A stretch of DNA of 20,209 nucleotides from a virus. The position numbers were made by a program, and so were the translations under genes. This document shows, one piece after another, positions 3,338 through 19,978 of this stretch. The notes beneath the pieces are model-generated. The model had not been told where the DNA came from. It did not search any database and was given only the letters and a program-made list of their open reading frames with translations. Numbering within the stretch: the stretch's first letter is position 1; each line of letters begins with the position of its first letter. The stretch is from positions 1 through 20,209 of the IMG/VR virus record IMGVR_UViG_3300035162_000390; one strand, given 5' to 3'.

Positions 3338-3766
3338 ATGATTATATTAACCACAAGTGCAACTGCACAAACCTTATCTGTAATACCAAGAGATTACTTA
3401 ACAGATTTTATTATGTCTATACGTGATGATAGTACAAACGTAGTAAAAACATATCAAATTAATGGTGCTACACAAGTAGGTAATTATTTAACATTTACAA
3501 ATATATTTAACCCTATATTAGTAGAAAATCATTTTTACGATGTAACATTAGAAACAGCAAATAGTTTTTGGAATACAAATGTTAAGTTATGGGAAAACGA
3601 TACAACGCTTTGGAATGTAGATGATGCAAGTGATGGAGTTATTTATAAGGATAGAATTTTCTGTACAGATCAAGATATAGACCAAAATAATAATGACTAT
3701 TATAACTTAAATAAAGGGCAATATACAACCTACAATGGTTATAATAATACTTATATAGTAATATGA
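3338..3766 (+). CDS. Hypothetical structural-module protein
   Basis: A 142-aa protein. I take ATG 3338 as the start; a TTG three bases earlier is in frame but the ATG is the better choice. The N-terminus (MIILTTSATAQTLSVIPRDY) is mildly hydrophobic but lacks a convincing signal peptide; the body reads as beta strands. The end has a KDRIFCTDQDI segment, then an Asn/Tyr-rich tail ending YIVI. I recall similar K-D-[KR]-I-F-C-T sequences in Flavobacterium prophage proteins without known function. Its stop overlaps the portal ATG as ATGA, so it probably sits in the portal operon and may contribute to the head-tail interface or capsid. Confidence 0.65.
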   Translation: MIILTTSATAQTLSVIPRDYLTDFIMSIRDDSTNVVKTYQINGATQVGNYLTFTNIFNPILVENHFYDVTLETANSFWNTNVKLWENDTTLWNVDDASDGVIYKDRIFCTDQDIDQNNNDYYNLNKGQYTTYNGYNNTYIVI

Positions 3767-5823
3767 AAAGACAAAGAAATAGTAAAGGACAATTTACAAA
3801 AGCATCAAAGGTTTCAGAATTTGGCTTTGTTAATTTAAGTACTTACACAAGTCCAGAAATTAAAGAAGTAAACGGTGAAGATTGGATAGAATACGGTGCA
3901 GATAACAATTATTTTCAATACTTAATAGATAGATACAATGGTTCACCTACTAATAATGCTGCTATTAATGGCATTAGTCAAGCTATATATGGAAAAGGAC
4001 TGAACGCAACTGATAGTAACAAAAAACCTAATGAGTACGCACAAATGATTGCATTGTTTAAAAAAGATGTAGTTAGAAAAGTGTGTTACGATTTAAAGCT
4101 AATGGGTAATGCTGCAATACAAGTAATTTATTCTAAAGACAGAAGTAAAATTGTTCAATTAGAGCATATGCCTATTGAAACATTACGTGCTGAAAAATGT
4201 AATGAAAATGGTGAAATACCAGCATACTTTTATTATGATGATTGGGCAAACATAAAACGTACTGATGAACCTTTAAGGATACCAGCTTTTGGAATGTCTA
4301 AAGAGGGTATAGAAATTTTTTATATAAAACCATATAAAAGTGGTTTCTATTATTATTCACCAGTAGATTATCAAGGTGGTTTACAATATGCAGAATTAGA
4401 AGAAGAAGTATCTAATTACCACCTTAACAATATTATGAATGGTTTAGCACCATCAATGCTAATTAATTTTAATAATGGTACACCTAACCAACAAGAACGT
4501 AAATTAATAGAAAATAAAATTGCTCAAAAGTTTAGTGGTACATCAAACGCTGGTAAGTTTATATTAGCTTTTAATGACAACAAAGAATCACAAGCAGAAA
4601 TAACACCAGTACAATTAAGTGATGCACATAACCAATACCAATTTTTAAGTGAAGAATCTACACAAAAAATAATGGTAGCACATAGAATTGTATCACCTAT
4701 GCTATTAGGTATAAAAGATGGTAGCGGTTTAGGTAACAATGCAGAAGAAATAAAGACTGCATCTTTACTAATGGATAACACCGTTATAAGACCGTTTCAA
4801 GAACTTTTAATTGATTGCTTTGACCAAATATTAGCATACAATGAAATTAGCTTAAACTTATACTTTACAACTTTACAACCATTAGAATTTACAGATGTAG
4901 ATAAGTCAGTACAAGATGCAGATACTATTGAAGAAGAAACTGGTGTTGAAAAAAGAAGATTTAGCCTAAAACAAATTGATGGTAAACAAGCATACGAAAC
5001 CAAAGAAGAAGCAATAAAGGTAGCTGAAGAAATGGGTTGTGGTGGTTATCACCAGCACGAGGTAGAGGGTGTTACATATTATATGCCTTGTGAAACACAC
5101 CAAGAACTTAAAGCTCCTTGTTGGGATGGTTACGAACAATATGGTACAAAAATAAAAGATGGCAAAGAAGTACCTAATTGTGTTAAGATGGAAAAAGAAC
5201 CTTTTTTATCTGATGAAATGGGTGAATCTATTTTAAAACATCTACAAGGTGAAAAAGTTGGTGATGAATGGGAATTGGTAGATGAATTAAGTACAGATGA
5301 AAACATTAGTGATGATGATTGGGCAAATATTTGTATAAAAAAGAAAAAAAGTTTATTCACAAGGCTATATGATGAAATTACATCTAAAAACAATGGTAGT
5401 GCTGAAAGCTATTTAGATTCTAAATATTATAAAATAAGATATAAATATGTTGTAGGATCAACTAAAGCAATGGAAAAAGGCAACCAGTCAAGAACGTTTT
5501 GTAAAAATATGATGCGTTTATCTGATGATGGTATTATATACCGAAAAGAAGATATTGACCAAGCAAGTTTTAGAGGTGTAAATAATGAATTTGGGCATAA
5601 AGGACAAAACTATTCTTTGTTCAAATTTAAAGGGGGTATTTATTGTAGGCATAAATGGGTTAGGGTTTTGTATAGAATGAAAGCAACAACTGAACCATCT
5701 GAAAATTTAGATGATTATAAAAGAACAAGAGCAATACCATCAAGTTATAATATTAAACCAGCTGGTACAAGAGAATCAGAAATAGCACCAATCAATATGC
5801 CTGATAGGGGTGCATACAAATAA
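3763..5823 (+). CDS. Portal protein with a long C-terminal extension
   Basis: A 686-aa protein. Residues 1-380 resemble portal proteins: basic N-terminus, EYGADNNYFQYLIDRYNGSP near 44-63, NAAINGISQAIYGKGL near 65-80, a DLKLMGNAAIQVIY strand near 110-123, PIETLRAEKC near 137-146, and a LSEESTQKIMVAHRIVSPML segment near 295-314 with the GSGLGNN turn. The portal is the dodecameric ring through which DNA is packaged. Residues 400-475 hold a Cys/His-rich segment (C426, H430, H432, C443, H446, C453, C473) including PCWDGYEQYGTK and VPNC. Residues 545-686 form a separate domain with FRGVNNEFGHKGQNYSLFKF and a Cys-x-His-x-W that I remember from flavobacterial phage structural proteins. The length, well above a usual portal, suggests a fusion with a head accessory module. 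The start overlaps the upstream stop by ATGA. Confidence 0.8.
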   Translation: MKRQRNSKGQFTKASKVSEFGFVNLSTYTSPEIKEVNGEDWIEYGADNNYFQYLIDRYNGSPTNNAAINGISQAIYGKGLNATDSNKKPNEYAQMIALFKKDVVRKVCYDLKLMGNAAIQVIYSKDRSKIVQLEHMPIETLRAEKCNENGEIPAYFYYDDWANIKRTDEPLRIPAFGMSKEGIEIFYIKPYKSGFYYYSPVDYQGGLQYAELEEEVSNYHLNNIMNGLAPSMLINFNNGTPNQQERKLIENKIAQKFSGTSNAGKFILAFNDNKESQAEITPVQLSDAHNQYQFLSEESTQKIMVAHRIVSPMLLGIKDGSGLGNNAEEIKTASLLMDNTVIRPFQELLIDCFDQILAYNEISLNLYFTTLQPLEFTDVDKSVQDADTIEEETGVEKRRFSLKQIDGKQAYETKEEAIKVAEEMGCGGYHQHEVEGVTYYMPCETHQELKAPCWDGYEQYGTKIKDGKEVPNCVKMEKEPFLSDEMGESILKHLQGEKVGDEWELVDELSTDENISDDDWANICIKKKKSLFTRLYDEITSKNNGSAESYLDSKYYKIRYKYVVGSTKAMEKGNQSRTFCKNMMRLSDDGIIYRKEDIDQASFRGVNNEFGHKGQNYSLFKFKGGIYCRHKWVRVLYRMKATTEPSENLDDYKRTRAIPSSYNIKPAGTRESEIAPINMPDRGAYK

Positions 5824-6414: not shown

Positions 6415-9400
6415 ATGGCAACTTTATTTAATACTAAAATATCTGATACTTACGAGGGGTTAATAAAAACATCTGATAATGGTGTAATAGGTGCAGTAGA
6501 AAAAAACCTAACAGATGGTTTAGGCAACGCATCAACTTTAAGTATAGGTACATCATCAGCAAGTTTTACTGGAACATTAAATTTAACAAACGCAACTGTA
6601 GTTGGTTTATCAAGTGGTGCAGTTGATAGTGTAAACGGGCAAACGGGTGTTGTTGTGCTTACAACTACTAATATAAACGAGGGTACAAATTTATATTTTA
6701 CAGATGCAAGAGTAGAAGCAAATAGTGCAGTTACTTTAAATACTGCAAAGGTTGGAATTACTACATCACAATCTGATGCTATTGTTTTAAATACTGCAAA
6801 AGTAGGTATTACACCAACACAAGCAAATGAAATAGCTGCTAATACATTAAAGGTTGGAATAACTACAAGCCAAGCATCAGACATTACAGCAAACAATGCA
6901 AAAGTTACATTCCCCGAAGCACCTAACGATGGGCAACAATATGCAAGACAATCACAAGGTTGGTCAGTAGTAACTGGTGGTGGTGGTGGTGCAGTTGATT
7001 CAGTTAATGGGCAAACTGGTACAGTTGTTCTTGATACTGATAATATAAATGAGGGTACAACTAATTTATACTATACCGATGCAAGAGTAAGTGCAAATAG
7101 TAGTGTAGCAGCGAATACTGCTAAAGTAGGTATTACATCACAACAAGCAACGGACATTACAACTAACAATGCTAAAGTTGGAATTACAACAAGTCAATCA
7201 AACGAAATAGCAGCTAACACTTTAAAGGTTGGCATCACACCTACACAAGCATCAGACATAACAATCAATAATGCAAAGGTAGGCATCACAACGCAACAAG
7301 CAAGTGATATAACAACGAATAATGCTAAAGTAGGCATAACTACTGCACAATCTAATGAAATAGCAGCAAACACGCTTAAAGTTGGTATTACTACTCAACA
7401 AGCAACCGATATAACAAACAACAATGCAAAAGTTGGTTATACGGATGCTTTGGTATCTGCTAATTCAGATGTAGTTGCTAATACTGCAAAGGTTGGTATA
7501 ACGTCAAGTCAAGCATCAGAAATATCTGCAAACACTTTAAAAAATTCTTACCCTACTGCTGATGCAACTAAACTTGCAGGAATACAAGCAGGTGCAGAAG
7601 TAAACGATGTAGATAGCGTAAATGGTTTAACGGGTACAGTTTCTTTAGGATTGCTTGAATTAGATGATGTAGGTGCAGATGGAATAAGTGGTCAAGTATT
7701 AACAACTAATGGTAGTGGTGCTTTTACTTTTACAACTGTTAGTAGTGGTGGTGGTGGTGTTTCAAGTGTAACGGGAACTGGTTCAGTAAGTGGTTTAACA
7801 TTAACAACGGGTGGTACTGCAAGTGATCCTATATTAACATTAGGTGGTACATTAAGTTTAACAAGTGCAAACGTAACAAGTGCTTTAGGCTTTACTCCAT
7901 ACAGTAATACAAACCCAAACAATTATATTACGGGAATTGATAGCAGTGATGTTACAACTGCTTTAGGTTTCACACCTTACAATGCTACCAATCCAGATAA
8001 TTTTATTTCTACATATACAGTAACAAATTCTGATGTAATTACTGCTTTAGGTTTTACACCATATAACAACACAAACCCAAGCAATTTTACAAGTAATTTA
8101 GGGATAGTACAAAGTGTTACGGGTAATGCAGGAATTTTAGAAATTGTTAATGGTGTTTTAAATGTACCACCATCAGCAGGCGCACCAGTAGATAGTGTAA
8201 ACGGTGCAACGGGGGTAGTAGTGTTAGATACAGATAATATTGCACAAGGTACAACCAATAAATATATGGTATTGGGTACAACTGCAAGTACTGCTTTAGC
8301 AGGTAATACAAGTTTATTACAACTTGGATTAACATCTACTACTGCTCTTGCTGGTAATACTACAACAATAACAACTGCACAAGCAAACGAAATAACTGCA
8401 AATACTGCAAAAGTTTCATTTGTAGATGCACCAAGTGATGGTAATGAATATGCAAGGAAAAATGCAGCTTGGGTTGTGGTTACAGATGCAGATAGTGTTA
8501 CAAGTGTAAATACTCAAACGGGTGCAGTAGTACTTGATACGGGTGATATTGCAGAAAATGGTAATCTTTATTTTACCGATGCAAGAGTTGCAGCAAATTC
8601 AGCAGTTACATTAAATACTGCAAAAGTAGGTTTTACACAAGCATTAGTTTCTGCAAATACTGATGTTACAAATAACACTGCTAAAGTAGGCATCACATCA
8701 GCACAAGCAACTGATATTACAGATAATAATGCAAAGGTTTCAATGGTTATTGGTACTGCTGCAAATGAAGCAATGGCAGGTAACACAACTACTATTACAC
8801 CAACCCAAGCTACTGCAATTACAGATAATAGTGCTAAAAATTCTTACCCAAGTGCAGATGCTACAAAGTTAGCAGGAATAGAAGATAATGCAGAAGTTAA
8901 CGTAAAATCAAATTGGAATGAAACAGATACAAATAGTGATTCTTTTATTCAAAACAAACCAACTATACCAAGTGCTGCACCCGTAGATAGTGTTAATGGT
9001 GCAACGGGTACAGTAGTTTTGACAACTGCAAATATATCGGAAGTTACTAATTTATATTATACGGAAGCAAGAGTATCTGCAAATTCAAGTGTAGCAGATA
9101 ATACTGCAAAAATATCTTTTGACAGCACAGCAAGTAATAAATTAAATGGTATTGAAGCAGGTGCGCAAGTTAATACAGTAGATAGTGTAAATAGTTTAAC
9201 AGGTGCAGTAACATTAACTACAAGTAATATTGCAGAAGGAACTAATAAATATATGGTTTTAGGTACTACTGCATCAACAGCGTTGGCAGGAAATACTGCA
9301 TTATTGCAATTAGGTACAACATCAACAACTGCATTAGCAGGAAATACTGATTTATTACAAATTGGTTTAACATCTACAACAGCGTTGGCAGGAAATACAA

Positions 9401-9639
9401 CAACTATTACTGCTCAACAAGCAACAGATATTAGCGATAATAACGATAAAATATCTTTCGATGCAACCTCAAGTGGAAAATTAGCAGGTATTGAAACTGG
9501 TGCAGAAGTAAACACGATTGATAGTATTACAAGTGGTGAACCAACTGGTTCAGACCAAGTTATAAATGTAGTTAGTTTAACACAAGCAGAATATGATAAT
9601 GGAAATAAAGTAGCAACAACTTTTTATATAATTACTTAA
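6415..9639 (+). CDS. Long repeat-built tail fibre protein
   Basis: A 1074-aa protein, Thr/Ala/Asn/Val-rich with no Cys. Residues 1-55 (NTKISDTYEGLIKTSDNG ... LTDGLGNASTLSIGT) resemble the virion-attachment end of Bacteroidota phage fibres. The shaft contains VDSVNG-x-TG-x-V-x-L collagen-fibre-like modules starting near 70, 194, 399, 592, 857 and 922, each usually followed by N-I-x-E-G-T-N-L-Y-[FY]-TDARV. Between them are runs of a 17-residue repeat (G-I-T-x-x-Q-A-x-x-I-x-x-N-x-x-K-V), three ALGFTPY modules (490, 516, 544) and a second 17-residue class with TALAGNT. The C-terminus (SLTQAEYDNGNKVATTFYII) matches a common fibre ending. Expected role: trimeric fibre for host recognition. Length may vary between relatives by repeat recombination. 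Reverse-strand frames across it are artefacts of the repeats. Confidence 0.85.
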   Translation: MATLFNTKISDTYEGLIKTSDNGVIGAVEKNLTDGLGNASTLSIGTSSASFTGTLNLTNATVVGLSSGAVDSVNGQTGVVVLTTTNINEGTNLYFTDARVEANSAVTLNTAKVGITTSQSDAIVLNTAKVGITPTQANEIAANTLKVGITTSQASDITANNAKVTFPEAPNDGQQYARQSQGWSVVTGGGGGAVDSVNGQTGTVVLDTDNINEGTTNLYYTDARVSANSSVAANTAKVGITSQQATDITTNNAKVGITTSQSNEIAANTLKVGITPTQASDITINNAKVGITTQQASDITTNNAKVGITTAQSNEIAANTLKVGITTQQATDITNNNAKVGYTDALVSANSDVVANTAKVGITSSQASEISANTLKNSYPTADATKLAGIQAGAEVNDVDSVNGLTGTVSLGLLELDDVGADGISGQVLTTNGSGAFTFTTVSSGGGGVSSVTGTGSVSGLTLTTGGTASDPILTLGGTLSLTSANVTSALGFTPYSNTNPNNYITGIDSSDVTTALGFTPYNATNPDNFISTYTVTNSDVITALGFTPYNNTNPSNFTSNLGIVQSVTGNAGILEIVNGVLNVPPSAGAPVDSVNGATGVVVLDTDNIAQGTTNKYMVLGTTASTALAGNTSLLQLGLTSTTALAGNTTTITTAQANEITANTAKVSFVDAPSDGNEYARKNAAWVVVTDADSVTSVNTQTGAVVLDTGDIAENGNLYFTDARVAANSAVTLNTAKVGFTQALVSANTDVTNNTAKVGITSAQATDITDNNAKVSMVIGTAANEAMAGNTTTITPTQATAITDNSAKNSYPSADATKLAGIEDNAEVNVKSNWNETDTNSDSFIQNKPTIPSAAPVDSVNGATGTVVLTTANISEVTNLYYTEARVSANSSVADNTAKISFDSTASNKLNGIEAGAQVNTVDSVNSLTGAVTLTTSNIAEGTNKYMVLGTTASTALAGNTALLQLGTTSTTALAGNTDLLQIGLTSTTALAGNTTTITAQQATDISDNNDKISFDATSSGKLAGIETGAEVNTIDSITSGEPTGSDQVINVVSLTQAEYDNGNKVATTFYIIT
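6754..6906 (+). repeat. 51-bp tandem repeats, run 1 (three copies)
   Basis: Three consecutive 17-residue units of the fibre (residues 114-164), each G-I-T-x-x-Q-[AS]-x-x-I-x-x-N-x-x-K-V, encoded by 51-bp units. Synonymous differences between copies are frequent, so the repeat is older than a recent slippage event. Confidence 0.8.
7129..7434 (+). repeat. 51-bp tandem repeats, run 2 (six copies)
   Basis: Six consecutive in-phase 17-residue units of the fibre (residues 239-340) of the same class as run 1, alternating between two subtypes: one ending NNAKV and one ending ANTLKV. A diverged 20-residue unit and one further partial unit follow. This is the longest uninterrupted repeat run in the window. 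Confidence 0.85.
7882..8064 (+). repeat. ALGFTPY modules in the fibre (three copies)
   Basis: Three modules with the heart ALGFTPY followed by N-x-[TN]-N-P-x-N-[FY] at residues 490, 516 and 544 of the fibre, spaced 26 and 28 residues. This LGFTPY/NP motif is common in phage tail fibres. Confidence 0.8.
8272..8373 (+). repeat. Second class of 51-bp repeat (two copies)
   Basis: Two units (fibre residues 620-653) of the pattern L-G-x-T-x-x-T-A-L-A-G-N-T-x-x-x-x, also 17 residues long, following a NKYMV segment. The same class recurs at 9259-9411. Confidence 0.75.
9259..9411 (+). repeat. Second class of 51-bp repeat (three copies)
   Basis: Three consecutive 17-residue units (fibre residues 949-999) with TALAGNT at the centre, again preceded by NKYMV. 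The block including its leader looks like a duplicate of the one at 8272-8373 with one extra unit. Confidence 0.8.
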
Positions 9640-9640
9640 T

Positions 9641-10663
9641 ATGGCATTAAAATTAGGAACAAGCACACCAAGTAGATTATACAAGGGTACAACTGAAATA
9701 AATAGGGCGTATTTAGGTGCAAATTTAGTTTGGAATAATTGGGATTTTGAAATACAAATACAACTTACAGCTCCTAAACTTACTTTTAATTTAGTTTACA
9801 ATAGTGGTGGTACATATACAGGAACTATTTATTGGGGAGATGGAAATACAAGCACGAACAGTTTTGCAAACAGGTCGCATACTTACGCTACAGGTGGAAC
9901 GTATAATATTAAAATTGCAGGGCAAATAAGCGATGTTAGTTTTGTAGATACAGCAAGTGCAGTATATAAATTAATTGCATTTGGCAAAGAAACATTTAAC
10001 TCAATAAGTTTTCAAAGTTGTGTAAATTTAAGTACATCAGATTTAAAAGATACTTTAAAAATAAGTGGAACAAGTTTAAATAATTTATTTTATGGATGTA
10101 CAAGTATAACATCAATACCTTTTATAAATGAATGGGATGTAAGCAGCGTAACAACAATGGTGCAAACATTTAGAGGTATGACAAATTGGGATGATAGTTT
10201 AAGTAATTGGGATGTTTCAAATGTTACAGATTTTTCAGCAACTTTTGGTCAAACATCGTCTTTTAATACAACTGTAAATGCGTGGGATACAAGCAGTGCA
10301 ACAAATATGACAGGAATGTTTGCGCAGTCTGCTTATAACAAATCATTATCTAATTTTGATACATCAAGTGTTACAAATATGCAGCAAATGTTTTTTGGAT
10401 CAACTGCATTTAATAAAGAGTTAGATTGGGATTTTTCAAGCATTACGAATATGTCTAATTTTATGACAGGTAAAAGTGCATCAAATTATGATGCTACAAA
10501 ATATGATACATTACTAAATGCTTGTTATAATGGTGGGCAAATGAATGTTACTTTAAATATGGGAAGTGTAGAATACACAAGTGCTGCATCAACGGTACGC
10601 AATAACTTAACATCATTTTTCGGTGGTAGACGTTGGACGATAACAGACGGTGGACAACAATAA
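9641..10663 (+). CDS. PKD-like plus DUF285 (BspA-like) repeat virion surface protein
   Basis: A 340-aa protein starting 2 bases after the fibre stop. Residues 1-32 (LYKGTTEINRAYLGANLVWN) match a short module common at the start of Bacteroidota phage tail proteins. Residues 50-95 look like a PKD-type beta sandwich (TIYWGDGN ... HTYATGGTYNIKI). From about residue 120 on there are DUF285-type repeats of about 25 residues with the motif W-D-[VT]-S-[SN]-[VA]-T-x-M-x-x-x-F, starting near 165, 190, 215, 239 and 263. DUF285 repeats are known from mycoplasma lipoproteins and BspA-like adhesins. The product probably sits at the fibre tip or on the tail and binds a cell surface; it may be the actual receptor-binding component. 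No signal peptide is visible, as expected for a phage virion protein. Confidence 0.75.
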   Translation: MALKLGTSTPSRLYKGTTEINRAYLGANLVWNNWDFEIQIQLTAPKLTFNLVYNSGGTYTGTIYWGDGNTSTNSFANRSHTYATGGTYNIKIAGQISDVSFVDTASAVYKLIAFGKETFNSISFQSCVNLSTSDLKDTLKISGTSLNNLFYGCTSITSIPFINEWDVSSVTTMVQTFRGMTNWDDSLSNWDVSNVTDFSATFGQTSSFNTTVNAWDTSSATNMTGMFAQSAYNKSLSNFDTSSVTNMQQMFFGSTAFNKELDWDFSSITNMSNFMTGKSASNYDATKYDTLLNACYNGGQMNVTLNMGSVEYTSAASTVRNNLTSFFGGRRWTITDGGQQ

Positions 10664-12628: not shown

Positions 12629-12757
12629 ATGGATGAAACTAAATGTTTAAAAATTAGAAAAGAACACTATATGCTATCAATAAGAGGTATTGTAGTAGGC
12701 GAATTTGAATTAAGTGAATTAAGGCATTTAATAGAAGTAATAGATAATGCCATCTAA
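12629..12757 (+). CDS. Small hypothetical protein (42 aa)
   Basis: ATG 12629, after an A-rich leader, to TAA 12757. The product (MDETKCLKIRKEHYMLSIRG, then a mainly acidic helix FELSELRHLIEVIDNAI) has a short strand pair followed by a helix, the shape of a small regulator or adaptor. It overlaps the NinG gene by 11 bases, a spacing seen between other genes here, which supports translation. First gene of the replication-side operon. No function recognised. Confidence 0.6.
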   Translation: MDETKCLKIRKEHYMLSIRGIVVGEFELSELRHLIEVIDNAI

Positions 12758-13160
12758 AACAATACCTAAAAGCAAAAAAAAACCAAGTAGAAGTAAACTT
12801 GTTAAAAAACTGGATGCAGTATTTAGCCAATACATTAGGTTAAAAGATTCAGTAGGTGGTTACGCAACTTGTTTTACTTGTGGTAAAAAAGACCATTGGA
12901 AAAAATTACAGAACGGACATTTCCAAAGTAGAAAGCATTATGCTACAAGATGGGATGAACAAAATTGCCAAGTGCAATGTGCTGGGTGTAATGTGTTTCG
13001 ATATGGTGAACAATTTTTATTTGCAAAGTATTTAGATGAAAGATTTTATGCTGGGTTATCTGATGAACTATACTTTAAGTCAAAACAGATCGTTAAGTTT
13101 TCAAATATAGAAATAGAAGAAATGATTTTAAAATATAAAAACTTGGTAGATAGTATGTAA
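12747..13160 (+). CDS. ninG: NinG/Rap-like recombination nuclease
   Basis: 137 residues. A basic N-terminus (residues 1-22, KSKKKPSRSKLVKK) precedes a zinc-binding core with CFTC (42-45) and CAGC (78-81) flanking QNGHFQSRKHYATRW (55-69) and N73. This is the NinG/Rap pattern, related to HNH-type zinc fingers, in which the G-H-F/Y-x-S-R segment is conserved. NinG proteins promote recombination by acting on branched DNA such as Holliday junctions; in lambda the homolog Rap aids RecBCD-path recombination. The C-terminal helix (IEIEEMILKYKNLVD) is usual for the family. It overlaps the preceding small gene and lies in front of the promoter-terminator cluster at 13143-13258. Confidence 0.85.
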   Translation: MPSKTIPKSKKKPSRSKLVKKLDAVFSQYIRLKDSVGGYATCFTCGKKDHWKKLQNGHFQSRKHYATRWDEQNCQVQCAGCNVFRYGEQFLFAKYLDERFYAGLSDELYFKSKQIVKFSNIEIEEMILKYKNLVDSM

Positions 13161-13418: not shown

Positions 13419-13793
13419 ATGGAAAGAAACAAATTAGTTGAGTTATACAAAAAGTATAATTTAGAAAAAACAGATGTATTTAAACACCAACACTATGTAA
13501 TTATTACAAGGCAAGGAATTGAGAAAATACAAGCACAAGAACAAATCAAAATTAAATTTGATGTAATAAAATGTGAACCTAACTTTGCAGTTGTAAAAGC
13601 AGTAAATGAAAATATTGAAACTTTTGGATCAGCTTATAAAGGTGCAAGTTTTAAAGAGGGTAACACCAATAGTTGGTACGTAATGGAAATGGCAGAGAAA
13701 CGTGCTTTATCAAGAGCAGTACTAAAATTAACTGGGTTTTATGAACTTGGTGTATTTGGAGAAGATGAAAGCGAAGATTTTAAAAAGAAATAA
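13419..13793 (+). CDS. Possible recombination or ssDNA-annealing-type phage protein
   Basis: 124 residues. N-terminal helix ERNKLVELYKKYNLEKTDVF, then HQHYVIITRQGIEKIQ and a strand region KIKFDVIKCEPNFAVVKAV, then an SWYVMEMAEKRALSRAVLKL helix (residues 86-104) and acidic end EDESEDF. The E-M-A-E-x-R-A-x-x-R-A-[VL] helix after a small beta sheet resembles the conserved end of Rad52/Sak or Erf-like annealing proteins and of related phage proteins that sit beside SSB. It lies between the NinG and SSB genes, in keeping with recombination. The resemblance is weak and the function should be read as tentative. Confidence 0.5.
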   Translation: MERNKLVELYKKYNLEKTDVFKHQHYVIITRQGIEKIQAQEQIKIKFDVIKCEPNFAVVKAVNENIETFGSAYKGASFKEGNTNSWYVMEMAEKRALSRAVLKLTGFYELGVFGEDESEDFKKK

Positions 13794-13794
13794 A

Positions 13795-15060
13795 ATGATA
13801 AAAATAAAAGAAGAATTTAAAAGTTTAATACCACCATTAACAATGGAAGAATTTAAGCAATTAGAAGATAATTGTTTAGCAGAGGGTATAAGGGAAAAAA
13901 TACTTACTTGGAATGGTTTTATTATAGATGGGCATAATAGGTTTGAAATTTCTGAACGATGGGATTTAGATTTTGAAACTGAAAGTAAACATTTTGAAAA
14001 TGAAGAAGCAGTTAAAGAATGGATGATACTAAACCAATTTGGTAGGAGAAATTTAAGTGCTTATCAAAGAAGTGTTTTAGCATTAGAACTTGAAGATGTT
14101 TTTAGTAAAAAAGCAAAGGAAAATTTAAGTAAAGGTGGTAAAATTTCACAAGAGGGTTTGCAGATTTCTGCAAAGGCTGTGGATACACGTAATGAACTTT
14201 CTAAAGTTGCATCAGTTTCACACGATACAATTGCCAAAGTAAAAAAGATACAAGAAAAAGCACCAGAAGAAGTAAAAGCAAAATTAAGAACTGGTGAAGT
14301 AAGTATTAACGCTGCTTATAAAGAAATAAAGAAAGAGGAAAAAAAAGCAGAATACAAAGAAAAAGTTTTAAAAGCAAGGGTTCAAACAGATATAAACGAT
14401 AACATAAAAAAAGGTGATAGTTTAGAAATATTAAAATCTTTAAAAGATGGTTGTATAGATGTTGTTTTAACTGATCCACCTTACGGTATTAATTATGTAT
14501 CTAACCGTTCTATGTATGATAACGCTATTACTAAACGAGGTTTGTTAAATGATGGCAAAAATGAAGCGTTTGATTTATTGGATAAAACTTGTAAAATATT
14601 ACAAAGCAAAACTGCTGATAATGCACATTTATATTTTTTTTGTAGTTGGAATGTTTTTAGTGATTTTGAAAAAATTATAAGCAAATACTTTACTATTAAA
14701 ACACCTATTGTTTGGGATAAAGGAAATAAAGGAAGTGGGGATTTAGATAACGATTGGGGTAACCAAACAGAAATTATTATATATTGTGTTAAGGGCAAGA
14801 AATTAGTAAACACAAGAAGAGGTAATATTCTAAACGTATCAAGGTTACATACATCTAAAATGGTACACCCAACCCAAAAACCAATAGAATTATTAAAAGA
14901 AATATTAAAAGTATCAGTATCAGCTGGTGATTTTATAGTAGATCCTTTTATGGGTTCTGGTAGTACAATAAAAGCTGCAAACGAACTAAATTATAAAAGT
15001 CTTGGTATTGAATTAGATGATGAAATGTTTTATATTGCAAATAATTTTATAAATGGATAA
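13795..15060 (+). CDS. ParB-like / DNA methyltransferase fusion
   Basis: 421 residues from ATG 13795, two bases after the preceding stop; an in-frame ATG at 13741 would overlap that gene. Residues 1-60 resemble a ParB/sulfiredoxin N-domain (LTWNGFIIDGHNRFEISERW at 37-56); residues 78-185 are helical with a KVASVSHDTIAKVKKI helix-turn-helix (137-152). Residues 205-421 form a DNA methyltransferase with DPPYGI at 227-232 (catalytic motif IV), HPTQKP at 358-363, and VDPFMGSGST at 382-391 (AdoMet site, motif I). Motif IV before motif I is the beta-class order of amino-methyltransferases that make N6-methyladenine or N4-methylcytosine. ParB-methyltransferase fusions are known in phages and mobile elements. 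The HTH may set target specificity. It overlaps the next gene by 8 bases. Confidence 0.85.
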   Translation: MIKIKEEFKSLIPPLTMEEFKQLEDNCLAEGIREKILTWNGFIIDGHNRFEISERWDLDFETESKHFENEEAVKEWMILNQFGRRNLSAYQRSVLALELEDVFSKKAKENLSKGGKISQEGLQISAKAVDTRNELSKVASVSHDTIAKVKKIQEKAPEEVKAKLRTGEVSINAAYKEIKKEEKKAEYKEKVLKARVQTDINDNIKKGDSLEILKSLKDGCIDVVLTDPPYGINYVSNRSMYDNAITKRGLLNDGKNEAFDLLDKTCKILQSKTADNAHLYFFCSWNVFSDFEKIISKYFTIKTPIVWDKGNKGSGDLDNDWGNQTEIIIYCVKGKKLVNTRRGNILNVSRLHTSKMVHPTQKPIELLKEILKVSVSAGDFIVDPFMGSGSTIKAANELNYKSLGIELDDEMFYIANNFING

Positions 15061-15556
15061 TGTTAGAAAATTAGAAAATAAATTTTTTGAAGAAATAGAA
15101 TTTCATATTAAAAAAGCATTTCCTAATATTAATGGTAATTTAGTACCATCTACCAGCGAAGAAGATAGTAAACTTTCTTTTGATGCTAAAATTAATAATA
15201 AACAGTTTTCAATAAGAATACGCAAAAACAATTATTTAAAATATTTAGATTTAACAATAAGATCAAGAAGTAAAAAAAATGGTAGAACAGAAATTGATAA
15301 AATAAAAGATGGTTTAGCAGAAATATATTTTTATTCATATATGAGTAAAAATCAAGACTGTTTGCAAAAAGTAAGAATAGTAGATGTAAATGCAATCAGA
15401 AAATTAACTAACAAAAATAAATTTACAATAAAAAAAAATGTAGATGGAACAGAATTTAATGCGTATAAATTTTCAGATATAAAAAAAGAAAATGGGAATA
15501 TTTATAAGTATGATAAAACACGAGGTATTGCGTGTATTGACAATACCAAAATTTAA
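15053..15556 (+). CDS. Hypothetical protein with nuclease-like features
   Basis: 167 basic residues. N-terminal helix (VRKLENKFFEEIEFHIKKAF), then LSFDAKINNKQFSIRIRKN (about residues 42-60), LDLTIRSRSKKNGRTEIDKI (65-85), GLAEIYFYSYM and a later IVDVNAIRKL. The series strand D-x-K, strand with Arg, [D/E]-x-T-I-R, T-E-x-D-K-I, G-x-x-[DE]-x-[YF]-F-Y recalls phage proteins that I regard as possible members of the PD-(D/E)XK nuclease group, but no clear E-x-K is present, so catalysis is uncertain. The start overlaps the methyltransferase stop by 8 bases, implying coupled expression. The pair could act on the same DNA. Confidence 0.5.
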   Translation: MDNVRKLENKFFEEIEFHIKKAFPNINGNLVPSTSEEDSKLSFDAKINNKQFSIRIRKNNYLKYLDLTIRSRSKKNGRTEIDKIKDGLAEIYFYSYMSKNQDCLQKVRIVDVNAIRKLTNKNKFTIKKNVDGTEFNAYKFSDIKKENGNIYKYDKTRGIACIDNTKI

Positions 15557-15566
15557 TATATAAATT

Positions 15567-15872
15567 ATGAGTACATTAATTAATGGTTCAATTAGAGTAG
15601 ACAAACTACCAAAAGAAAAATTTGTGAAAGGAAAAGATGGTGCAGTTTATTACAACTTTACTATTGCAGTAAATGATGAAACACGATACGGGAACAACGT
15701 AGCGTTTATGGATTCACAAACAAAAGAAGAACGAGAAGCTAAAATGCCAAAAACCTATTTAGGTAATGGCAAAGTAGTATGGGTTTCAGATGGAACTATA
15801 CAAGTAGCTGAACGAGAAGAAGAAAAGGTAGCAGTACCAGTAGATGATCAAAGTGGTGATTTACCATTTTAA
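15567..15872 (+). CDS. ssb: Single-stranded DNA-binding protein
   Basis: 101 residues. An N-terminal beta barrel (INGSIRVDKLPKEKFVKGKD ... VYYNFTIAVND) reads as a small OB-fold, and the protein ends in an acidic tail SGDLPF. A short acidic stretch finishing D-x-P-F is the classic SSB tip that recruits partner proteins, and it is the strongest evidence here. It is smaller than E. coli SSB but similar to phage SSBs. It would coat single-stranded DNA during replication and recombination. It is followed by a terminator at 15881, so it ends the operon that probably starts at 13286. Confidence 0.8.
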   Translation: MSTLINGSIRVDKLPKEKFVKGKDGAVYYNFTIAVNDETRYGNNVAFMDSQTKEEREAKMPKTYLGNGKVVWVSDGTIQVAEREEEKVAVPVDDQSGDLPF

Positions 15873-18690: not shown

Positions 18691-19400
18691 TATTATTAGT
18701 AGATGCAGATAGTTTAATATTCGCTGCTTGTTATAAGAAACGAGAACACCCAGAGGATGAAAAGTACTATACAGATATAGAAGATGCAAGGGCAAAGTTT
18801 GATGAGCAATATATGTCAATAGTAAACCACCTTGAAGAAATGTACCAAATAGATAAGGTAATAACCTTTAGTGGATCAAAGGGCAACTTTCGAAAACTTA
18901 TAACAAACGATTATAAAGCCAATAGAAAAAAACAAGAGTTACCACCATTACTAAATGAAATGCACAAATTTGTAAAAGAACATTATGATTCAGTATATGG
19001 TTATGGTATTGAAACTGATGATATGGTTGCAAGGTACTGGAAGCAATTAAGTGATGAATTAGGTAGGGATGAAGTAATGATAGTATCAATAGATAAAGAC
19101 TACAAACAATTCCCAGCTTTAATATACAACTATCACTATAAGCACAAAGAAGTATTAAATATTTCAGAAGATGAAGCATTGTATAATTTCTATGAACAAA
19201 TGATTGTAGGTGATACTGCTGATAATGTAAACTACTTTAAAGGTAAAGGTGTAAGATTCGCACAAAAGTATTTTGAAGATTGCCAAACAAAATACCAATA
19301 CACAAAAAAGTTATACGAATTATTTAAAGAACAATATAAAGGAAAAGCAAAACAAAAATATATAGAGTGCTACAACCTTTTAAAATTAAGAACCAATTAA
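18687..19400 (+). CDS. FEN/PIN-type 5'-3' exonuclease
   Basis: 237 residues. Metal-binding acidic residues typical of the T4 RNase H/T5 exonuclease group: D6 and D8 in LLVDADSLIF, FSGSKGNFRK at 61-70 followed by DYKANRK, GIETDDMVARYW at 107-118 (E109, D111, D112), SIDKDYKQ at 134-141 (D136, D138), and GDTADN at 175-180 with D176 and D179. G-D-T-A-D-N and the following GKGVR match the H3TH region of phage flap endonucleases. It would remove RNA primers or trim flaps during replication. It is co-transcribed from the promoter at 18013 and overlaps its neighbours by ATGA and TAATG. Confidence 0.85.
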   Translation: MILLVDADSLIFAACYKKREHPEDEKYYTDIEDARAKFDEQYMSIVNHLEEMYQIDKVITFSGSKGNFRKLITNDYKANRKKQELPPLLNEMHKFVKEHYDSVYGYGIETDDMVARYWKQLSDELGRDEVMIVSIDKDYKQFPALIYNYHYKHKEVLNISEDEALYNFYEQMIVGDTADNVNYFKGKGVRFAQKYFEDCQTKYQYTKKLYELFKEQYKGKAKQKYIECYNLLKLRTN

Positions 19401-19978
19401 TGGATATACAAAAACACGAAATAGAACTTAATAGAATAAAAAGCTATGTAGATAAACATAGTGGATATGATATAAGCACAAGGTCAAGGAAAGCAGAAGT
19501 AGTATTGTTTAGAACATTGTACTTTAAAATAGCAACCGATACTACCAGCTGGTCATTACAAAAAATAGGGCAAACAGTAAATAGGGATCACGCAACAGTA
19601 TTACACGCAAAGAAAAAACTATATGCTGAACTGATGCAAAATAAACATCTAACAAGCCTATATGAAATATATAGAATAGAAGTATTAGGTCAACAAGTAG
19701 ATACGTACTATAAAGATGTAGAACAATACAATAGACTAAAACAAAAGTATAACGATTTACTGGCTTTAAAAATACCTAACAATTTAGGTTACGAACTAAC
19801 CAAAAACGAAACTGCATATAGAAACTTATCACCAGAAGATAAAAAGGTATATGATGAACGTGCAGAACTTGTAATAAAGTCTTTTGAATGGAAGCGTAAA
19901 GATGAACACAGAAAAGAAGTATATGATATAATTATTGGTGAACCAACAGTAACCGATGCAAGAGCAAGTTTAAGATGA
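19400..19978 (+). CDS. Free-standing DnaA domain IV-like DNA-binding protein
   Basis: 192 residues from ATG 19400, which shares its A with the upstream TAA; an in-frame ATG at 19367 lies inside the exonuclease gene. Residues 26-75 match the DnaA C-terminal DNA-binding domain: SRKAEVVLFRTLYFKI helix, WSLQKIGQTV (51-60), and NRDHATVLHAKKKL (61-74), which corresponds to the DnaA signature G-R-D-H-T-T-V-x-x-A. There is no AAA ATPase domain. The second half (85-192) is a long helical region with EQYNRLKQKYNDLLALK and an end rich in charged residues. Likely a phage initiator accessory, regulator or competitor for DnaA boxes. It overlaps the next gene as ATGA. Confidence 0.75.
   Translation: MDIQKHEIELNRIKSYVDKHSGYDISTRSRKAEVVLFRTLYFKIATDTTSWSLQKIGQTVNRDHATVLHAKKKLYAELMQNKHLTSLYEIYRIEVLGQQVDTYYKDVEQYNRLKQKYNDLLALKIPNNLGYELTKNETAYRNLSPEDKKVYDERAELVIKSFEWKRKDEHRKEVYDIIIGEPTVTDARASLR

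Follow-up and report, generated by a model that had tools for sequence, protein, structure and literature searches.

In type II restriction-modification (R-M) systems many unrelated nucleases are found, each with its own methyltransferase (MT). Type II restriction enzymes are said to 'rarely occur on bacteriophages' (PMC4081073), and complete R-M systems do occur on phages, for example Sau42I of phage Phi42 (PMC6536676). MTs fused to a ParB-like domain have been described at the ParB-Tls locus, where the MTs lie near terminase genes (PMC6536676), and in a prophage, whose ParB-methyltransferase BCE_0392 has an activity associated with nicking (PMC3459991, PMC5512222). A survey of ParB-fold fusions included phage N6_N4 MTs and suggested anti-defence or phage-host roles (PMC12704722). 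For virus-encoded R-M, degradation of host DNA or exclusion of rivals has been proposed (PMC10101028), and for marseillevirus R-M the degradation of host DNA was tested and not found (PMC7253447). The usual reading of a phage MT is that of an orphan which shields the phage from restriction by its host; the locus described here would be of another kind. It lies in a virus record of 20,209 bases (IMG/VR record IMGVR_UViG_3300035162_000390, the whole of which is called the window), in which the gene for a ParB-like/MT fusion protein overlaps the gene for a small nuclease-like protein. Among the relatives of this locus the MT domain and the nuclease are exchanged together as a block and the ParB-like head in front of them is conserved, which goes beyond the view taken in a preliminary description of the window.

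The fusion gene and its nuclease-like partner

The fusion gene occupies positions 13795-15060 on the + strand and runs from ATG to stop, giving a protein of 421 amino acids (aa); an in-frame ATG further upstream would lengthen it to 439 aa. The preliminary description had read this open reading frame (ORF) as a ParB-like domain with a helix-turn-helix (HTH) joined to a beta-class MT, and matches to PF01555 and to a PHROG ParB family bore out the MT and ParB-like parts. The presence of both domains in one chain identifies a phage ParB-methyltransferase fusion. The ParB-like and HTH head (residues 1-189; 13795-14361, + strand) is constant among relatives, the part that follows it being exchanged, and it matches phrog_12047, a ParB-like partition nuclease (E 4.5e-11). 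Pfam did not call a ParB domain in the window head at E <= 1, and when PDB profiles were searched with the alignment of heads, the matches were designed repeat proteins and others at chance level, ParB not being among them. The HTH is putative, being read from the sequence. Heads in the alignment (A3, n = 9) are 60-75% identical to that of the window, and one locus with the same MT and nuclease type as the window, L029, bears a different head with a Pfam ParB_N match (E 2.7e-7). The MT domain (residues 191-421; 14365-15057, + strand) matches Pfam PF01555 (N6_N4_Mtase, E 1.7e-27), PADLOC MTase_II (E 3.9e-36) and, among PDB profiles, a DpnA-type MTase (E 1.2e-18). Its motifs are intact, DPPYGI being followed by DPFMGSG, which we take to be the beta-class order.

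The next gene, an ORF for 167 aa at 15053-15556 (+ strand), begins 8 nucleotides (nt) before the end of the fusion gene, so that the MT stop and the nuclease start overlap at 15053-15060 (+ strand) as had been described. The 8-nt overlap recurs in many of the loci found with the nuclease as seed, and the remaining beta-class loci overlap by 2-8 nt. When the loci are read from the MT side, 74 of 81 have a next gene whose earliest start comes no later than the last letter of the MT stop codon. Short gene overlaps are commonplace in phages, so the overlap by itself carries little weight.

Residues 1-155 of the 167-aa protein are common to its relatives and the last 12 arise from the ORF running into the right-edge element described below. 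No convincing family was found for it in Pfam, PHROGs, NCBIfam or PADLOC, tblastn of INPHARED records gave no match and a search of PDB profiles gave chance-level matches only. A scan of GTDB with the nuclease alignment found none, yet it missed locus L134, which has a 57% identical nuclease and was reached through the head scan. An AlphaFold2 model built from a 17-sequence alignment had a mean predicted local distance difference test score (pLDDT) of 84.1 and a predicted template modelling score (pTM) of 0.80. The top VIA-align 2 match of this model was DpnI (Z 9.8, root-mean-square deviation 3.5, 131 residues), which exceeds the Z of 7 to 8 that the program itself rates as common. Further matches were Eco15I (8.4), NhoI (7.8), PvuII (7.7), SPARDA (6.9) and Hjc (6.8) and, lower down, RecU (5.2), HinP1I (5.1) and MspI (5.0), with human Rep15 also present at 5.0. 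Most of the matches listed are PD-(D/E)XK nucleases. With this pLDDT and the DpnI match, the predicted structure has the PD-(D/E)XK core fold; the nuclease fold suspected earlier thus survived the structure prediction, restriction enzymes of this fold being the best matches. Residues M1, R5, D38, D44, S53, R55, R57, D66, T68, I69, E80, K83, Y92, F93, Y94 and D131 are invariant in the 17 sequences. The ratio of nonsynonymous to synonymous substitution (dN/dS) was 0.15-0.63 in 28 of 28 pairs from 8 homologues, indicating purifying selection.

The nuclease alignment (A2) as seed gave 53 viral loci, duplicates kept. Three of these (L245, L254 and L255) begin at the nuclease itself, leaving 50 that are readable upstream, and an MT is encoded directly upstream of the nuclease in 49 of the 50, L243 being the sole exception. 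The co-occurrence looked for among relatives was therefore found. The 49 are 46 loci compared together plus L257, L258 and L259, the last of which has the final residues of an MT-A70 gene preceding the nuclease. Loci L256-L259 hold remote relatives of the window nuclease paired with MT-A70 domains. The 46 loci hold 31 distinct upstream proteins, and BLAST found a window-like head in 41 of the 46 upstream genes, including L256 at 25%. The five others have the canonical ParB of L253 (on the same contig as L029), a type without evident ParB in L220, L221 and L227, and another type in L225. Across the 49 loci the MTs are preceded by N-terminal heads of at least four kinds. In the window, as in type II R-M, the nuclease gene adjoins the MT gene. 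That an unrelated ORF overlaps by chance was ruled out by the 49 of 50 pairings and the dN/dS values. In L225 (3875-5008) DSPY replaces DPPY in the MT and the nuclease is apparently intact, which may mean that the base specificity has changed or that the MT is weakened.

Seeding with the MT fusion (best 80 of 204), the head (best 80 of 244) and the nuclease yielded 132 loci with the head, or 89 once duplicates were removed. In 83 of the 89, comprising 81 MT loci and 2 with DUF4326, the fusion is followed by a gene for 80 aa or more whose start lies between -75 and +80 nt. The 81 are 55 beta-class, 25 MT-A70 (six DPAW variants included) and 1 C5-cytosine. The six loci without such a gene are L065, L079, L080 and L104, which end inside the fusion gene, L120, which ends 202 nt past it, and L047. 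In L047 (3796-4217) an early in-frame stop breaks the nuclease frame and the MT frame is open, possibly a natural nuclease-null or else a sequencing error. The C5-cytosine fusions are L122 (4001-5786, by Pfam) and L120 (4001-5383, by motif). In L099 (4001-5582) and L125 (4001-5594) a DUF4326 domain (Pfam E 8.4e-17 in L099) takes the place of the MT behind the same ParB-HTH head, and the gene that follows overlaps the fusion and encodes 223 aa, with no Pfam match in L099; this is possibly another DNA-modification pair in the same slot.

The next genes form eleven clusters including the DUF4326 partner, ten by BLAST and one, L061/L118, separated by hand. The latter had joined cluster c0 in BLAST, probably through the right-edge tail, and was split off before the profile comparison, the motif counts and the counts on the MT tree. 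Profile comparison (22 sets, 231 comparisons) united c0a with c0b (91%), c1a with c1b (96%) and c1a with c2 (93%) and left c3, c4, c5, c6, c8, c9 and c10 separate, c9 being near L153 at 64%. About nine profile groups of small proteins, mostly nuclease-like, thus stand beside the MTs, and a single nuclease family across all relatives was ruled out. A D...[DE]xK pattern is present in 15/15 members of c1, 8/8 of c3, 5/5 of c5, 3/3 of c6, 2/2 of c8 and 2/2 of c10, and is incomplete in c2 (10/13), c0 (12/24), c4 (1/8) and c9 (0/1); it also occurs in 70 of 213 control ORFs (33%) and so is weak evidence alone. The c4 protein gave a model of poor reliability (pLDDT 72, against 48-53 for four further models), which matched RecU (Z 6.5), I-Ssp6803I (6.4), Eco15I (6.0) and PvuII (5.6). 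The matches listed for it at Z >= 5 are PD-(D/E)XK proteins. Representatives of c1 and c5 had weak Pfam and NCBIfam matches below the cut-off, including UPF0102/YraN and, for c1, NERD, and for c3, c6, c8, c9 and c10 motif or reading suggests a nuclease.

Exchange of the methyltransferase domain and nuclease as one block

Heads can be up to 97% identical between loci that differ in both MT and nuclease. Where the heads are 90-97% identical and the nuclease cluster is different, the MT halves are mostly about 20-35% identical, those of c3/c6 pairs being 65-72% identical. The edges of the exchanged segment were located in 11 pairs, chosen for high head identity and different nucleases rather than at random, in which DNA homology over the head is 86-98%. 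The homology ends at a left junction equivalent to fusion residues 182-193 of the window (14338-14373, + strand) in 9 of the 11 pairs. The exceptions are L009/L028, where it reaches residue 232, and L050/L044, where it continues through the MT to 416; L028/L054 have an additional 135-nt stretch within the MT at 72%. On the right, homology resumes <= 6 nt from both nuclease stops in 7 of the 11 pairs and 17-27 nt ahead of the stops in L044/L027 and L073/L081. In two pairs involving L061 it resumes 1 nt from the partner's stop and 41-44 nt before that of L061, whose nuclease ORF, as in the window, runs into the right-edge element. The resumed homology extends for 0.1-2.7 kb at 78-95%.

On a tree of the MT domains of the 55 beta-class loci, with 7 nuclease clusters, the nuclease type requires 6 changes, which is the minimum; shuffled labels required a mean of 27.9 and none of 200 shuffles was as low as 6. 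The head tree of the same 55 loci requires 25 changes of nuclease cluster and a head tree of 83 loci, in which L061/L118 had not yet been split off, requires 45. In enlarged trees, to which cellular and archaeal-virus loci were added for having a nuclease-like next gene, 66 beta-class rows required 8 changes (minimum 8) and 30 MT-A70 rows required 4 (minimum 4). The nuclease type follows the MT-domain tree and not the head tree.

Flanking genes, cellular relatives and the rest of the window

The right-edge element (15515-15547, + strand) is an inverted repeat, GGTATTG/CAATACC (15524-15530 and 15541-15547), overlapping ACACG/CGTGT. It is present in a single copy in the window, ahead of a gene for a protein like single-stranded DNA-binding protein (SSB), and was found at the nuclease stop in 14 of 83 scanned loci beside nucleases of different clusters. 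Its stem letters covary, with GGTATTG/CAATACC in 10 and GGTGTTG/CAACACC in 4 of the 14. An RNA hairpin was considered and rejected as folding was no better than that of shuffles (z -0.69 and -0.94), and Rfam gave none at the gathering threshold. It is possibly an operator that serves the SSB-like gene, any role in exchange being unsupported. The SSB-like gene itself (15567-15872, + strand) forms the right flank of the block; its Pfam SSB match is weak (E 0.0079, below the cut-off) and it is present in 5 of 17 long records, counting the window. The left flank is a 124-aa gene (13419-13793, + strand), single-strand-annealing-like by eye only, for which Pfam and PHROGs gave no convincing family; it is 73% identical in L117 and 70% in L134. 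The neighbours of the locus are recombination and replication genes, namely a NinG-like gene (12747-13160), the SSB-like gene, an AAA gene and a 5'-3' exonuclease. PF00589 (tyrosine integrase) and PF00239 (serine recombinase) were matched in 0 of the 17 long records, which may be fragments; on this basis the phages are likely to be virulent.

Cellular loci with a related head were represented by the best 80 of 472. An MT motif was found in 15 of these, the other 65 being scored for these motifs only, and a nuclease-like next gene was found in 10 of the 15. The assignment of these ten is by BLAST for L134, by profile for L135, L139, L152, L153 and L162, by a weak profile match (49%) for L149 and by motif only for L143, L145 and L157. 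Unflagged cellular heads are followed by genes of other kinds where these could be read, which was for the first 110 residues only. L134, from a Vicingaceae (Flavobacteriales) assembly, has the flank gene 70%, the head 72%, the MT 79% and the nuclease 57% identical to those of the window, and this hints at a host group of the Flavobacteriales type. In the archaeal Methanoculleus virus locus L4768 a ParB-MT gene overlaps a 189-aa gene bearing a D...DVERK stretch. A related nuclease occurs with a related MT type in loci from Bacteroidota phages, Eubacteriales, Selenomonadales, Chitinophagaceae and Methanoperedens.

Elsewhere in the window, adjacent ORFs at 96-464 and 488-859 look paralogous (MKSNIEKVYSKLP.. 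and MKSRLEKVYSKLP..). A 686-aa ORF (3763-5823) encodes a portal protein (PF04860) that also matches DUF3721 and is much extended at its C terminus. At 6415-10663 a repetitive 1074-aa protein (51/153-bp repeats at 7114-7436) comes first and a DUF285 repeat protein of 340 aa (E 1e-55) second, and these two are perhaps adhesion or tail proteins. A 203-aa protein (19367-19978) carries the DnaA C-terminal DNA-binding domain (PF08299, E 1.3e-10) and has no Pfam AAA match.

Interpretation and comparison with known systems

The gene pair is probably a phage-borne, exchangeable R-M unit of type II-like character in which the MT is tethered to a DNA-binding head. The predicted fold, the near-constant pairing, the tracking of nuclease with MT and the two edges of the block are established parts of this model. 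The preliminary description had offered a modification and restriction pair as one possibility, and this is supported by the fold prediction and the co-occurrence, cleavage being a prediction only. For cleavage, a matched specificity, what the head does, how exchange takes place and the biological target, the following is proposed. The MT domain would mark a short target sequence in phage DNA and the small enzyme of PD-(D/E)XK fold, whose translation is probably coupled to that of the MT through the gene overlap, would cut the same sequence where it is unmarked, that is in host DNA or in the DNA of a co-infecting phage. The ParB-like/HTH head would bind DNA, probably that of the phage, and so place the MT on the genome to be protected. 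Specificity would be renewed by swapping the MT domain and the nuclease as a single block, through homologous recombination in the conserved head on the left and in the region of the SSB-like gene on the right. In a virulent phage, by analogy, such a restriction enzyme may serve to break up host DNA or to exclude rival phages.

Several observations weigh against an R-M unit. Foldseek found no PDB match to the model of the 167-aa protein at E <= 0.001, the best being D212 nuclease (E 0.0041) and PvuII (E 0.013 and weaker). The canonical D...(D/E)xK motif is absent from the window protein, in which D44 is followed by S53-x-R55, and the window nuclease might therefore not cut. The spacing suggests that D44 and S53-x-R55 occupy the positions expected for D and E-x-K, and the missing acid and lysine may be supplied by E80 and K83, with which the next helix begins; a D, an R and an E..K pair recur by eye in the remote relatives L153 and L256-L258. 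Since E-x-K is missing, the protein is best described as having a PD-(D/E)XK-like fold with an unusual site and not as a canonical member. L243 (308-790) encodes an intact nuclease, 51% identical to that of the window, and the 307 nt upstream of it encode no MT in three frames; no match to the window MT domain was found in its 7,464-base record, although the record starts there and an MT could lie further off. This nuclease adjoins a 243-aa frame and phage structural-looking genes, as a solitary or moved copy. Cluster c8 occurs with two MT chemistries, C5-cytosine in L122 and beta-class in L131 (4001-5562). The MTs of L050 and L044 are 72% identical, yet their nuclease clusters were unjoined by profiles, and c0 requires two changes on the MT tree and is not one clade, L110 and the L032 type standing apart. 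In five of the 15 cellular head and MT loci (L137, L142, L146, L174 and L177) the next gene does not read as nuclease-like. Finally, tracking does not prove matched specificity because block exchange between shared flanks would give tracking on its own.

The missing E-x-K (S53-x-R55) in the window family would be explained if the small protein were a non-cleaving accessory of nuclease fold, acting as a specificity or DNA-binding subunit of the MT in a pair that modifies phage DNA against host restriction. The gene overlap, which suggests a complex, would also fit, as would L243, where a nuclease without an adjacent MT is safer if it does not cut, and PMC6536676 for the most part describes the MTs of phages, also those fused to ParB, as orphans. 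We consider this explanation unlikely given that other clusters in the slot keep D...[D/E]xK, for example all 15 of c1 (33% in controls, 1/8 in c4), and that E80 and K83 are invariant in the 17 sequences and visible by eye in the remote L153 and L257. Less likely still is a replication or recombination pair, in which the nuclease would resemble a Holliday-junction resolvase and the MT fusion would be a replication or packaging factor. Such roles have been proposed for ParB-MT fusions (PMC3459991, PMC6536676), the NinG-like, SSB-like, AAA and 5'-3' exonuclease neighbours are of the right kind and Hjc (Z 6.8) and RecU (5.2) are among the structural matches, with DpnI at 9.8 and PvuII at 7.7 above them. 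However, a resolvase need not switch family with the MT domain, yet on the MT tree the nuclease type changes no more often than it must; the window already holds a NinG-type gene, and the same MT and nuclease types sit on unrelated heads.

It is also conceivable, at a very low probability, that the MT and the nuclease are swapped jointly merely as neighbours between shared flanks and have no functional match. Recombination in conserved flanks would carry both genes, and the L050/L044 pair, sharing an MT and differing in nuclease cluster, and the L243 nuclease without an adjacent MT are what such hitch-hiking might leave. This is difficult to reconcile with 49 of 50 pairings across at least four heads and with the recurrence of related nuclease and related MT type from Bacteroidota phages to the Eubacteriales, Selenomonadales, Chitinophagaceae and Methanoperedens loci.

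Returning to an R-M unit, we tentatively put forward, as a possibility short of a probability, a wider version of it, in which virulent tailed phages have a slot for exchange inside a gene. The constant head would load whichever modifying domain it carries, be it beta-class N6/N4, MT-A70, C5-cytosine or even the DUF4326 enzyme, onto the phage genome, the travelling nuclease would destroy unmarked DNA and the identity of the phage would be changed by a single recombination event. If true, the locus would be a natural library of small matched R-M pairs, found in many viral contigs, with several nucleases that match no family model searched here. Self/non-self marking by a lytic phage within one infection would become testable, and the block swap would amount to a new DNA identity code and a weapon in conflict between phages and between phage and host.

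A nuclease travelling with a ParB-fused MT is not mentioned in the available excerpts of PMC6536676, PMC5512222, PMC3459991 and PMC12704722, and no description of this unit was recognised among the matches listed in the open-access literature searched. Chloroviruses and marseilleviruses are alike in that the virus carries an MT and a restriction nuclease; they differ in infecting eukaryotes, and the excerpts at hand mention no ParB head for their R-M. The best structural matches of the window nuclease, by predicted fold, are the nuclease domains of DpnI, NhoI and Eco15I. DpnI is m6A-dependent (PMC10101028) and the structure entries for NhoI and Eco15I are titled with methylated target DNA; these enzymes are compared by fold only, because a methylation-dependent nuclease that adjoined its own MT would turn against its own DNA. 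The ParB-MT fusions of the ParB-Tls locus and BCE_0392 share a ParB-like domain, an N6/N4 MT and a variable site for modification enzymes with the window, whose locus stands ahead of an SSB-like gene in a region of recombination type, the neighbours identified including NinG-like and SSB-like genes. As in type II R-M, for example PvuII, an MT gene adjoins the gene for a small nuclease of PD-(D/E)XK fold. Unlike type II R-M, the pair of the window is in a tailed phage, the MT is fused to a ParB-like head and the MT domain and nuclease are exchanged behind a head that remains constant. Three points are new here: the pairing is nearly constant, a single slot holds many nuclease-like groups that profiles do not join, and the block is exchanged while the ParB-like head before it stays constant.

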